Positions 15,925-57,885 of a stretch of DNA of 64,000 nucleotides are shown one piece after another; position 1 is the first letter of the stretch; the number at the start of each line of letters is the position of its first letter. A program made the position numbers and the translations under genes. Below the pieces are notes generated by a model. It saw only the letters and a program-made list of their open reading frames with translations. It searched no databases and was not told the DNA's origin. The stretch covers positions 1,258,917 to 1,322,916 of the forward strand of contig JAOSKE010000001.1 in assembly GCA_027493775.1 (NCBI GenBank), read 5' to 3'. Source of the DNA: Kiritimatiellia bacterium (lineage in GTDB: Bacteria > Verrucomicrobiota > Kiritimatiellia > CAIVKH01).

Positions 15925-16003
15925 TTCCAAGACTTGGAAGTGCCTTTCGCAAAAACTTCCAACCCTTGGAAGTCCGACCTAAAATGACTTCCAACCCTTG
16001 GAA
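15925..16003 (+). repeat. Tandem palindromic repeat, 3 units at exact 32-bp period (TTCCAA-N3-TTGGAA at 15925, 15957, 15989), directly upstream of pdxA
   Basis: TTCCAAgacTTGGAA / TTCCAAcccTTGGAA / TTCCAAcccTTGGAA read directly; last arm is 5 bp from the ATG. Confidence 0.95.
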
Positions 16004-16008
16004 CTTTT

Positions 16009-17016
16009 ATGGCGAAGAAAAAACCACTACGAATCGGAATCACCCTCGGCGACGTCAACGGCATCGGGCCAGAGGTGGCATTGAAGGCCGCGCGGCGTTT
16101 GCGGCGCGTCAACGCGCAACTCGTGTTCATCGGCAACGCGGCGAACCTCGAACAACAGGCCATCGCACTAAAACTTTCGGCGCTCAGAATGGGATCCCCG
16201 ACAACCCGCCCGCCGCGCGCGCGTATTGCTGGTCACCCGACGAACAAAAATTGCGCTGGCAGCCCGGCAAGCTGGACCCCGCCGCATCCTCAGCGGCGGC
16301 AAGCTGGATTCTCGCCGGTGTTGATGCCTGCCTGCACGGAGAACTGGATGCAATTGTCACTGCGCCGATTTCCAAGGAGGGCTTTGATCGCGCGGGAATT
16401 GATGTGCCCGGCCACACGGAACTGCTGGCCGATTTATGCGGCGCAACGCGCGTGGGAATGATGCTGTTCGGCGGCCCGCTCCGCGTCGTGCTCGCAACGC
16501 GACACATTCCGATTTCTGCGGTCCCCAGCGCCCTCACCCGTCGTGTAATCGAGGATGCCATTGCATTGACCAACGACGCGCTTCCGTGGATGGGTGTCAA
16601 ACGCGCCAAAATTGCGGTGTGCGGACTCAACCCGCACGCAGGCGACGGAGGAAAACTCGGAACAGAAGACGATGCAATTGTGCGCCCGGCAGTTGAGCGG
16701 CGCGCAGCGACGCGGTGTAAACGTTTTCGGACCGCTCTCTGGAGACGCGGTCTTTTATCACGCCGCAAACGGGAGCTACGATGCGGTGATTGCGATGTAT
16801 CACGATCAGGGTCTCGCGCCACTGAAGCTGGCCGCGTTCGATACCGGCGTGAACCTGACCCTCGGCCTTCCCATCGTCCGCACCTCGCCCGACCATGGGA
16901 CCGCGTTCGACATCGCCGGAAAGAACAAGGCAAACCCGTCGAGCATGATGGCCGCGATTTCATGGGCCGCAACGCTTGCGGCCCGAAAAAACCCATGGAA
17001 GCGGGCGCGTTCTTGA
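16009..17016 (+). CDS. pdxA: 4-hydroxythreonine-4-phosphate dehydrogenase, two frameshifts
   Basis: [27 protein letters not shown]..; ..[30 protein letters not shown]..; ..[51 protein letters not shown] spread over three frames. Confidence 0.93.
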
Positions 17017-17834
17017 TTTTCCCCGCCGTGAATCCGACCCGCTCTTCCGAAGTTCGCGCACTCTTGGAGCATCTCGACTTCAAGCCCAGCCGGGTGCTCG
17101 GCCAGAACTTTCTCGTGGATGCAAACATCCTCCGCATCATGCTCGACGCGGCAGAGCTTTCGCGCACAGACGCGGTTCTTGAAATAGGCCCCGGTCTTGG
17201 CGTTTTGACCGGGCCTCTTGCGGAAAGGGCGGGCCGGGTCGTTGCAATTGAAAAAGACGATGTGCTTTACGAACATCTTCGCACCACATTTAGCGACGCG
17301 CCGAATTTAGCGCTCATTCACTCTGACGCGCTGGATGTTGACCTCGCCGGATTGCTCGAAAATGGAATAAACAAGGTTGTCGCCAATCTCCCCTACTCCG
17401 TCGGAACGCGGGTTTTCGTGGAACTTTGTCACGCCCCCGCCCGCCCCGAACGGATGATCGTCACGGTGCAGCGCGAGGTTGCGGACCGCATGATCGCCAA
17501 GCCCGGCACGAAAGATTACGGAGTGTTGAGCGTCTTCGCGCAAACCGACTATGCCGCCTCGCTCCACAAGGCCGTTGCGCGCACCTGTTTTTGGCCCGCC
17601 CCGCAGATTGAGTCTGCCATTGTGTTGCTTGTGAAACAGCGCCGCGCTATCGCTCCGAAAGACCCACCCGCTTACCGCGCGTTGGTGAAGCGCTGCTTCG
17701 AACAGCGCCGGAAACAACTCGGTTCACTCATCCGAGACCACGCCGCAATCGTCGCAATCGGAGCCGACCCCAAACAACGCCCCGAAACCGTTCCCGTCGG
17801 CACTTGGATCGAACTCGCGAACAAACTGGCCTGA
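16995..17834 (+). CDS. ksgA: 16S rRNA (adenine(1518)-N(6)/adenine(1519)-N(6))-dimethyltransferase
   Basis: [64 protein letters not shown]. Confidence 0.95.
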
Positions 17835-44335: not shown

Positions 44336-45433
44336 CTACTTCACACGCATCGGCATCAGCACGTAGAGGAACGGCTGATCATTGCGAAGCACACCGGGGC
44401 TCAAATCGTCACTGACATCAAGCGTCACTTCATCGCTCGCAAGGTTGCGCAGCGGCTCCATCAAAAAGTCGGGGTTGAACGCAACCGTGATCTCTTTCCC
44501 AGAATACTTGATCGCCACCTTTTCCTTCGCCTCTCCAACATCGTTCACAATGGCGGAGACTTCGAGATGGCCCTTGGTAAAGCGAAGGGTCACAGGTGTG
44601 TTGCGATCCGTCAGCAGCAGAGCCACGCGGCGAACGGCGTTCATCACCAATTCGCGCTCCAGCGTAATCCGCTCGTCAGAGCCTTGCGGAATGACCTGAC
44701 GGAAATTCGGGTAGCTGTGATCCACCAGCTTTGAAATCAAGTGCATGTTGTCGAATTCCAGCGAAATCTGGTTGTCAGAAATCTGAATTCGCACGTCCCC
44801 TTCCGGCTTCAACGACTTCAAGAGCTCCTGAACCGTCTTGGTCGGCACAATCCACTCGCCTTCCATCGCAGGAGAAATGGACTCCTCCTCCTGCTCCCAC
44901 ATCGCCATGCGCCGCCCATCCGTGGCGACGACATTGAGCTTGCCGTCCTTGAAGCTCAACAGCACCCCGTTCAACATCGGGCGGGACTCATCGCTCGACG
45001 CGGCGTAATGCGTGGACTGAAGCATGTTTTTGAAGAGCTTCTGGCTGATGGAATACACCTTGTCGCCCGAAAATTTGGGCATCGGCGGAAATTCATCCTC
45101 CGAGATGCCGAAAATTTTGTAGTACGCGGAGCCGGACTGAATCGTCGCCGCGTCCTTGTCGTCCACGTCCAGCTCGATCTCATTCGTCGGCAGCTCTTTG
45201 AAAATCTGGAAAACCCGTTTCGCCGGGAGCGTCGTGCCGCCGCTGCGCGCGATTTTCGCCTCCACAGACGTGCGGATCGTCACCTCCAGGTCCGTCGCCG
45301 TCAGCCACAGGCGATCCTGGTCGGCCTTCAAATAGACATTGTACAACACCGGTAGCGTGGAACGTGTGGATACAATGGCTTGCACCTTTTGCAGGCCTTC
45401 GAGCAAGGCGTCTTTATTGACGGACAGCTTCAT
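44336..45433 (-). CDS. dnaN: DNA polymerase III beta subunit (sliding clamp)
   Basis: MKLSVNKDALLEGLQKVQAIVSTRSTLPVLYNVYLKA..; C-term VLMPMRVK. Confidence 0.97.
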   Translation of the reverse strand: MKLSVNKDALLEGLQKVQAIVSTRSTLPVLYNVYLKADQDRLWLTATDLEVTIRTSVEAKIARSGGTTLPAKRVFQIFKELPTNEIELDVDDKDAATIQSGSAYYKIFGISEDEFPPMPKFSGDKVYSISQKLFKNMLQSTHYAASSDESRPMLNGVLLSFKDGKLNVVATDGRRMAMWEQEEESISPAMEGEWIVPTKTVQELLKSLKPEGDVRIQISDNQISLEFDNMHLISKLVDHSYPNFRQVIPQGSDERITLERELVMNAVRRVALLLTDRNTPVTLRFTKGHLEVSAIVNDVGEAKEKVAIKYSGKEITVAFNPDFLMEPLRNLASDEVTLDVSDDLSPGVLRNDQPFLYVLMPMRVK

Positions 45434-50017: not shown

Positions 50018-51298
50018 TTATTCTTCGCGTTCGATATCAGCGCCGAGATCGCGCAGGCGTTCGTCCACCTGTTCGTAGCCACGGTCTATAACTTCAGCGC
50101 TTTCGATGACGCTTGTTCCACGCGCACAGAGCGCGGCGATGAGCATCGCCATCCCGGCGCGAATATCCGGCGAGCTCATGTGAATCGCTCGCAGCCGCGC
50201 GGGGCCTTCGACCACGACGCGGTGCGGGTCGCACTGCACGAGTCGAGCGCCCATTTCAATGAGGCGATCAACGAAGTACATTCGACTCTCAAACAGCTTT
50301 TCGAAGAACAGCACGCTTCCGCGAGCCTGTGTTGCGAGTACAATCAGCACGCTCATCAAATCGGACGGGAACATCGGCCAGACCCCGTCTTCAATCTTCG
50401 AAATCGCTCCGCCAAAATCGCGCTTTATCCGAAAGAAACGATGTGCTGGTTGAAGAAGCGAATCGCCGTCGCCTTTCCATGTCAAACCGAGCCGCGCGAA
50501 AGGGCGACCGATCACCGCGCGAACTTCATTGTCTGGCAATCCAGTCACACTCAGTTCCCCGCCCGTCACCGCAGCCGCTGCGAGATAGCTCCCGGCTTCG
50601 ATATAATCGGGGCCAATCGTGTGTTCCGTGCCGCCCAACCGGTCAACGCCGGCAATCGTGATGCGATTTGTTCCAACCCCTTCAATGTGCGCGCCCATTT
50701 TGATGAGCAGGGCGCAGAGGTCTTGCACATGCGGCTCACAAGCCGCGTTGTAGATGCACGTTTCGCCGTCCGCCGTCGCTGCGGCCATGATCAGATTTTC
50801 CGTAGCGGTGACGCTCGCTTCTTCCAGAAGAATGGAGGCCCCCCGCAGACGTTTCTTTGCGCTGAAACCGAAAAAATCGCCGCCTTCGAGCTTCACCCCC
50901 ATTGCGCGGAGGCCCGCGAGGTGCGTGTCCACGCGTCGCCGCCCGATCACGTCGCCGCCCGGCGGATAAATACTCGCCCGGCCCAAACGCGCGATCATCG
51001 GCCCAGCAAAAAGAATCGAAGCGCGGACGCGCATACAGAGTTCACGGTCGAGTTTGGTTTTTCTAATCCGCTCCGCGCGCAGCGTGACACTGCGTCCCCG
51101 CAAGTTCGTTTCCACGCCCAGTCCGGCGAGGAGTTCGAGCAGCACGCGGACGTCATTGATCAGCGGAAGATTGTGCAGCGTCACCGGTTGATCGGTCAGC
51201 AGGCACGCGGCGAGCATCGGCAGCGCGGCGTTTTTGTTTCCAACCGGCGTGAACGTCCCGGAAATCCGGCGCTGTCCTTTGATAATGAGGCGACTCAC
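50018..51298 (-). CDS. murA: UDP-N-acetylglucosamine 1-carboxyvinyltransferase, Asp at catalytic Cys position
   Basis: GTFTPVGNKNAALPMLAACLLTDQPVTLHNLP; RASILFAGPMIARLGRASIYPPGGDVIGRRRVDTHLAGL. Confidence 0.93.
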   Translation of the reverse strand: MSRLIIKGQRRISGTFTPVGNKNAALPMLAACLLTDQPVTLHNLPLINDVRVLLELLAGLGVETNLRGRSVTLRAERIRKTKLDRELCMRVRASILFAGPMIARLGRASIYPPGGDVIGRRRVDTHLAGLRAMGVKLEGGDFFGFSAKKRLRGASILLEEASVTATENLIMAAATADGETCIYNAACEPHVQDLCALLIKMGAHIEGVGTNRITIAGVDRLGGTEHTIGPDYIEAGSYLAAAAVTGGELSVTGLPDNEVRAVIGRPFARLGLTWKGDGDSLLQPAHRFFRIKRDFGGAISKIEDGVWPMFPSDLMSVLIVLATQARGSVLFFEKLFESRMYFVDRLIEMGARLVQCDPHRVVVEGPARLRAIHMSSPDIRAGMAMLIAALCARGTSVIESAEVIDRGYEQVDERLRDLGADIEREE

Positions 51299-51336
51299 CG
51301 TTCCGCCCTTCGCTCGCGCGCGGCGTGAATTAAAAG

Positions 51337-51383
51337 TTCCAAGGCTTGGAAGTGATGTCGAAAAGGACTTCCAAGGGTTGGAA
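51337..51383 (-). repeat. Tandem palindromic repeat, 2 units at 32-bp period, upstream of murA
   Basis: TTCCAAggcTTGGAA (51337) and TTCCAAgggTTGGAA (51369); toward murA reads ..TTGGAActtttaatt. Confidence 0.95.
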
Positions 51384-51414
51384 CTTTTTTGTTTTCAGGA
51401 GTTCGCACTACGGT

Positions 51415-53241
<1,827 letters not shown>

Positions 53242-57838: not shown

Positions 57839-57885
57839 TTCCAAGCCTTGGAAGTCCGTTTGAACAAGAGTTCCAAGCCTTGGAA
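57839..57885 (+). repeat. Tandem palindromic repeat, 2 units at 32-bp period, in argG-nth divergent region
   Basis: TTCCAAgccTTGGAA at 57839 and 57871; last arm followed by gttttATG of nth. Confidence 0.95.

Follow-up and report, generated by a model that had tools for sequence, protein, structure and literature searches.

The gap between glmS and murA in the genome of a Kiritimatiellia bacterium (G000; 3.2 Mb in five contigs) carries two short palindromic units that belong to a genome-wide family of helically phased arrays. We propose that these arrays are probably operator-like platforms at gene boundaries, bound by a putative oligomeric (dimeric or tetrameric) DNA-binding protein. The general form of the family is a pair of 15-bp sites, TTNCA-N5-TGNAA, set 31 or 32 bp (three helical turns) apart. 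We compared G000 with two congeners, G001 and G002 (the latter sampled around its arrays, with proteins a median 75% identical to those of G000), with G003 from the same family as G001, and with further genomes; the compared genomes include metagenome assemblies. The window, meaning the whole 64,000-nucleotide stretch analysed (G000:C1:1258917-1322916), contains the following features, in window coordinates:

51337..51351, no strand: unit 1 of the glmS-murA array, TTCCAAGGCTTGGAA, from sequence and motif scan
51352..51368, no strand: 17-bp linker, GTGATGTCGAAAAGGAC on the + strand, free sequence except for its GT..AC ends
51369..51383, no strand: unit 2 of the array, TTCCAAGGGTTGGAA, starting 32 bp from the start of unit 1
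51331..51390, no strand: the entire array with its symmetric flanks, an A-tract on the left and a T-tract on the right
50018..51298, - strand: murA, the gene downstream of the array, with a GTG start 38 bp from it
51415..53241, - strand: glmS, the gene upstream of the array, ending 31 bp from it
15925..16003, no strand: three-unit array of the same family in the gap between a SurA-like gene and pdxA, with units at 15925, 15957 and 15989
57839..57885, no strand: two-unit array of the same family in the gap between argG (-) and nth (+), kept at nth in G002

The window thus holds seven units where 0.17 would be expected with at most one mismatch, and none of 100 shuffles reached seven, which is far beyond chance. 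The pdxA frame that follows the array at 15925 is frameshifted (window 16009-17100): a 150-aa ORF from the ATG ends early, and pdxA-like sequence picks up in different frames and leads into a KsgA-like ORF. This break is either a sequencing error or a pseudogene.

The original prediction had described TTCCAA-N3-TTGGAA units at 51337-51351 and 51369-51383, 32 bp apart, and these are exact in the sequence. Its reading of the array on the murA strand, TTCCAACCCTTGGAA-GTCCTTTTCGACATCAC-TTCCAAGCCTTGGAA-CTTTTAATTC, and its 38-bp distance to the murA start codon are likewise correct. The interpretation built on them survived in part. This is a real second array of one family with the same 32-bp spacing, in a gap where G002 also has a two-unit array, but the claim that the element is directional despite its palindromic cores was not supported. 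When copies in G000 were aligned and oriented by the downstream gene, the outcome was against a conserved polarity: the two flanks, like the two ends of the linker, are reverse complements of each other, and the loops show no bias by gene direction. The left flank of the glmS-murA array, TTAAAAG, is the mirror of the 'terminal TTTTA' that had been taken as a directional end. Over 1.4 Mb of G000 the flanks mirror each other (A at 0.84-0.88 in positions -4 to -2 on the left, T at 0.84-0.94 on the right), and linkers start with GT about as often as they end with AC, giving the mirror-symmetric composite AAAA-S-unit-GT(C/G)...(C/G)AC-unit-S-TTTT. Oriented by downstream gene, (C/G)TTTT followed 14 of 24 arrays and its mirror preceded 13 of 24; GTCC began seven of 25 linkers and its mirror GGAC ended two. 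Loops along tandem genes were evenly split (22 C-rich vs 22 G-rich). G002 gave a weak hint of flank polarity, with a downstream T-tract excess of 8 vs 1 among 31, and the asymmetric units of G001 in tandem cases lay with the gene seven times and against it three times (p = 0.34). The original prediction had compared the downstream ends of two arrays and overlooked the mirrored upstream end.

Across the whole G000 genome, 186 exact units form about 95 arrays, while a reversed control pattern gave 0. We worked out the detailed anatomy on 1.4 Mb of contig C1, calling genes with a home-made coding model. This stretch contains 76 exact units in 36 arrays (30 pairs, three triples and three quadruples), spaced by 32 bp in 41 cases, 31 bp in three and 33 bp in one, and it has no lone-unit arrays when near-matches are counted. 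Against the 76 exact copies there were only eight with one mismatch, indicating that the cores do not decay. Arrays lay outside called genes in 29 of 36 cases, while non-coding sequence makes up only 14% of C1; most of the others touch ORF ends, and coding copies are nearly absent. The gene contexts in C1 were tandem (15), convergent (9) and divergent (5), and convergent gene pairs were over-represented at arrays in G000 and G002 (odds ratio 2.6, p = 0.003). Arrays also occur inside operons of C1 (murF-mraY, a nuoC-nuoD-like pair and a gspF-gspG-like pair). Some sit a few base pairs upstream of start codons, as at nth, and many directly past a stop codon. Their neighbours in C1 are ordinary, unrelated housekeeping genes with no functional theme among them. 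Rfam had no match at the arrays, and we found no description of TTCCAA/TTGGAA pairs in the open-access literature. Spread of whole arrays as a unit was considered and rejected, given that neither linkers nor outer flanks are shared between copies in G000; a degree of excess similarity was seen in both G002 and CAIVKH, a high-copy genome. One array lies inside an NAD-synthetase-like ORF in both G000 (C1:44829-44875, L171) and G002 (L250:9769), about 780-830 nt from the ORF start and near the expected nitrilase/synthetase domain boundary.

Array positions are conserved between congeners. Among 12 syntenic gaps with both flanking genes adjacent, a script scored eight as carrying an array in G002, compared with about 3% of gaps expected, and inspection raised this to 10 of 12 by adding the G000 arrays at 44829 and 98054; the glmS-murA gap is among the shared ones. 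At shared sites both cores are identical, the loops differ, the linkers are 39% identical (31% between non-orthologous copies), and the number of units varies (4 vs 2, 2 vs 3). Intact cores combined with diverged linkers and loops and a varying unit number are the pattern expected from selection on the units alone. The hydA-prpB gap has arrays of the TTCCAA dialect in G000, G002 and a third genome (L067) and of another dialect in G001, and an array in the rfbA-rfbC gap is common to G001 and G002. Some G001 positions, for example before mutS, are not shared, so array turnover exists.

The spelling of the units changes between lineages, with TTCCAA/TTGGAA in G000 and G002, TTACAG/ATGGAA in G001 and TTCCAT/ATGGAA in G003. 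The unit TTCCAANNNTTGGAA occurs 186 times in G000, 170 times in G002, twice in G001 and never in G003. TTACAGNNNATGGAA is absent from G000, G002 and G004 and has 160 copies in G001 and 38 in G003; TTCCATNNNATGGAA is absent from G000 and G002 and has 10 copies in G001 and 150 in G003. Pair numbers, with TTNCA-N5-TGNAA pairs at 31 and at 32 bp added together, are near 100 (99 in G000, 99 in G002, 94 in G001 and 124 in G003). The generalised pair was present at 31 bp in 60 and at 32 bp in 56 of 146 Kiritimatiellia genomes, a count in which genomes that lack a match to this pattern may carry another spelling. About 190 genomes from other classes of the phylum yielded just one with a single match. 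In a scan of GTDB contigs, the labels among the matches listed were Kiritimatiellia, Lentisphaerae, Verrucomicrobia, PVC or unnamed. Unit copy number spans about 15 to over 3000 among related genomes. One viral contig in IMG/VR (IMGVR_UViG_3300035670_001097, L289:7669-7715) holds an exact array pair, which is either a prophage flank or phage-borne.

The G001 unit is asymmetric, which makes its direction readable. Pairs at 31 or 32 bp in G001 had the same orientation in 42 of 42 cases, and a spacing of 16 bp (one and a half turns) or 47 bp (four and a half) went with inversion in nine of nine. Such a coupling of orientation to helical phase characterizes double-stranded DNA in contact with protein, rather than RNA or single-strand hairpins. 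The longer arrays of other genomes combine 31- and 32-bp steps. Some pairs are accompanied by an additional unit at a distance of about 16-18 bp, or one and a half turns; such units were seen at L236 near 9704 and at G000:C1:1142502, are kept in the tsf-queF gap of G000 and G002 and recur in G001; further such sites are L269:1564, L278:9022 and L287:5285.

We considered whether the arrays instead act in RNA, as bidirectional intrinsic terminators or as hairpins that process or stabilize mRNA between genes. The G000 arrays do fold (about -23 kcal/mol, z = -5.6, on both strands) between A- and T-tract flanks, and the enrichment at convergent genes and the many arrays just past a stop codon would suit such a role. 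In G001, however, the geometry is kept and the units are incapable of pairing (single-unit MFE 0.0, mean array z = +0.2). A hairpin followed by a U tract, as in an intrinsic terminator, is accordingly not conserved, being present in the G000/G002 dialect and lost in G001. Since the G001 arrays are unfolded and those of G000 folded, we take the RNA hairpin to be a by-product of the palindromic dialect. Arrays also lie in divergent regions, and a few base pairs before starts within operons (murF-mraY) and before nth, and neither the 31/32-bp phasing nor the phase-locked orientation has an RNA rationale. We therefore consider an RNA-level element unlikely; a terminator effect in the G000-type dialect is possible as a secondary property.

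Another reading is that the arrays are selfish or mobile palindromes of the REP type, multiplied by a RAYT (Y1 tyrosine transposase) or an enzyme like it, in which case their positions would be insertion accidents. G000 does have many extragenic, clustered, palindromic copies, copy number is very variable, and Y1_Tnp genes are found in G000 (five) and most of its relatives. REPs carry a one-sided GTAG/CGTC tetranucleotide tag beside the palindrome (PMC3733652), whereas the units described here are symmetric, have no one-sided GTAG or CGTC tag and lie in flanks of mirror-symmetric composition. Nor do the repeats go along with a Y1 transposase: across 38 genomes the number of Y1_Tnp genes and that of arrays were uncorrelated (Spearman 0.22, p = 0.18), and G021 has 79 pairs and zero Y1 hits. 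Linkers and flanks that are unrelated between copies, undecayed cores, positions kept in a congener and the non-palindromic units of G001 all speak against copying of this kind. The absence of the tag and of a Y1 correlation, together with the conserved positions, makes this origin improbable in our view. Separately, the Kiritimatiellia genome G035 shows a large expansion to 86 Y1_Tnp hits, many of those listed being partial, and this expansion does not follow the arrays. Finally, high copy number, near-perfect cores and species-specific spelling resemble known uptake dialects, but the obligatory 31/32-bp pairing, the near absence of lone units and the almost complete lack of coding copies make it very unlikely that the arrays are DNA uptake sequences maintained by biased uptake and recombination.

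Recognition of the arrays at the DNA level by a protein is favoured because decayed copies are few, positions are conserved despite diverged linkers, spelling forms dialects, RNA folding is lost in G001 and orientation is locked to helical phase. On the platform model, two (sometimes three or four) sites TTNCA-N5-TGNAA phased at three helical turns would let one dimeric or tetrameric protein contact both sites from a single face of the DNA. One trans-acting protein family may recognize the sites and co-evolve with them. Because the neighbouring genes have no theme and arrays occur in every gene context, the role would not be the control of one regulon but the structuring of the chromosome or the insulation of transcription at the borders between genes; a repressor role inside essential operons is unlikely. 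Several findings count against the platform: our search turned up no binding protein, a range of about 15 to more than 3000 units suits a repeat that spreads better than it suits a fixed regulon, the neighbours share no theme, the RNA hairpins of G000 are stable and convergent pairs are enriched.

More tentatively, the arrays might be a class-specific genome-organizing system, in which an oligomeric protein occupies phased arrays between genes, at about one hundred to more than a thousand boundaries in each genome, and protein and sites all switch spelling together within a genus. If this is right, a whole bacterial class has an unrecognized genome-wide DNA-binding system whose specificity and sites all changed between species of one genus, and the coordinated evolution of a protein with about 100 sites becomes directly testable. 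It would also explain a Kiritimatiellia repeat otherwise filed as REP or terminator noise.

The fixed geometry of the arrays gives a handle with which to fish for the binding protein. Our own search, which covered a candidate HTH gene, the NrdR profile and flanking-gene clusters across genomes, found no array-binding protein, and no recurrent regulator stood out beside arrays among the flanking-gene clusters. The candidate, a MerR-like HTH gene (G000:C1:12595-13137, L169), was rejected as it is absent from G001, G002 and G003; relatives of it occur in 45 of 146 class genomes and do not track arrays. In the array beside this gene (C1:12410), the second unit uses the half-site of the other dialect, TTCCAAGGTCTGTAA. 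NrdR was rejected as the binder on its phylogenetic profile, being found in 139 of 146 class genomes with arrays present or absent.

Compared with known systems, the arrays share with REP/BIME elements short palindromic units that are clustered, extragenic and high in copy, and differ in their exact helical phasing, their conserved positions and their lineage dialects, one of them non-palindromic. Many near-perfect copies and species-specific spelling recall uptake dialects of the Neisseriaceae type; known uptake sequences, however, are short single words that are also common in genes, whereas the arrays are paired, phased and intergenic. A reading of the arrays as NrdR boxes fits less well. 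NrdR boxes govern ribonucleotide reductase operons, whereas arrays lie at unrelated genes, and a genome has about 100 to more than 1000 pairs; we found neither a reductase-operon location, the C1 neighbours being unrelated housekeeping genes, nor a dependence on NrdR, which occurs independently of arrays. The TTCCAA-N3-TTGGAA core also differs from the NrdR consensus, and the two boxes of C1 that loosely resemble NrdR boxes both lie away from arrays. In geometry, however, the NrdR box pair is the closest known system. Each of its two palindromes is 16 bp long, a spacer of 15-16 bp lies between them, and their centres are three helical turns apart; both boxes are needed for tight binding of the tetramer (PMC12051234). 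The arrays reproduce this arrangement with units one base shorter (15 bp), linkers of 16-17 bp and steps of 31 or 32 bp.
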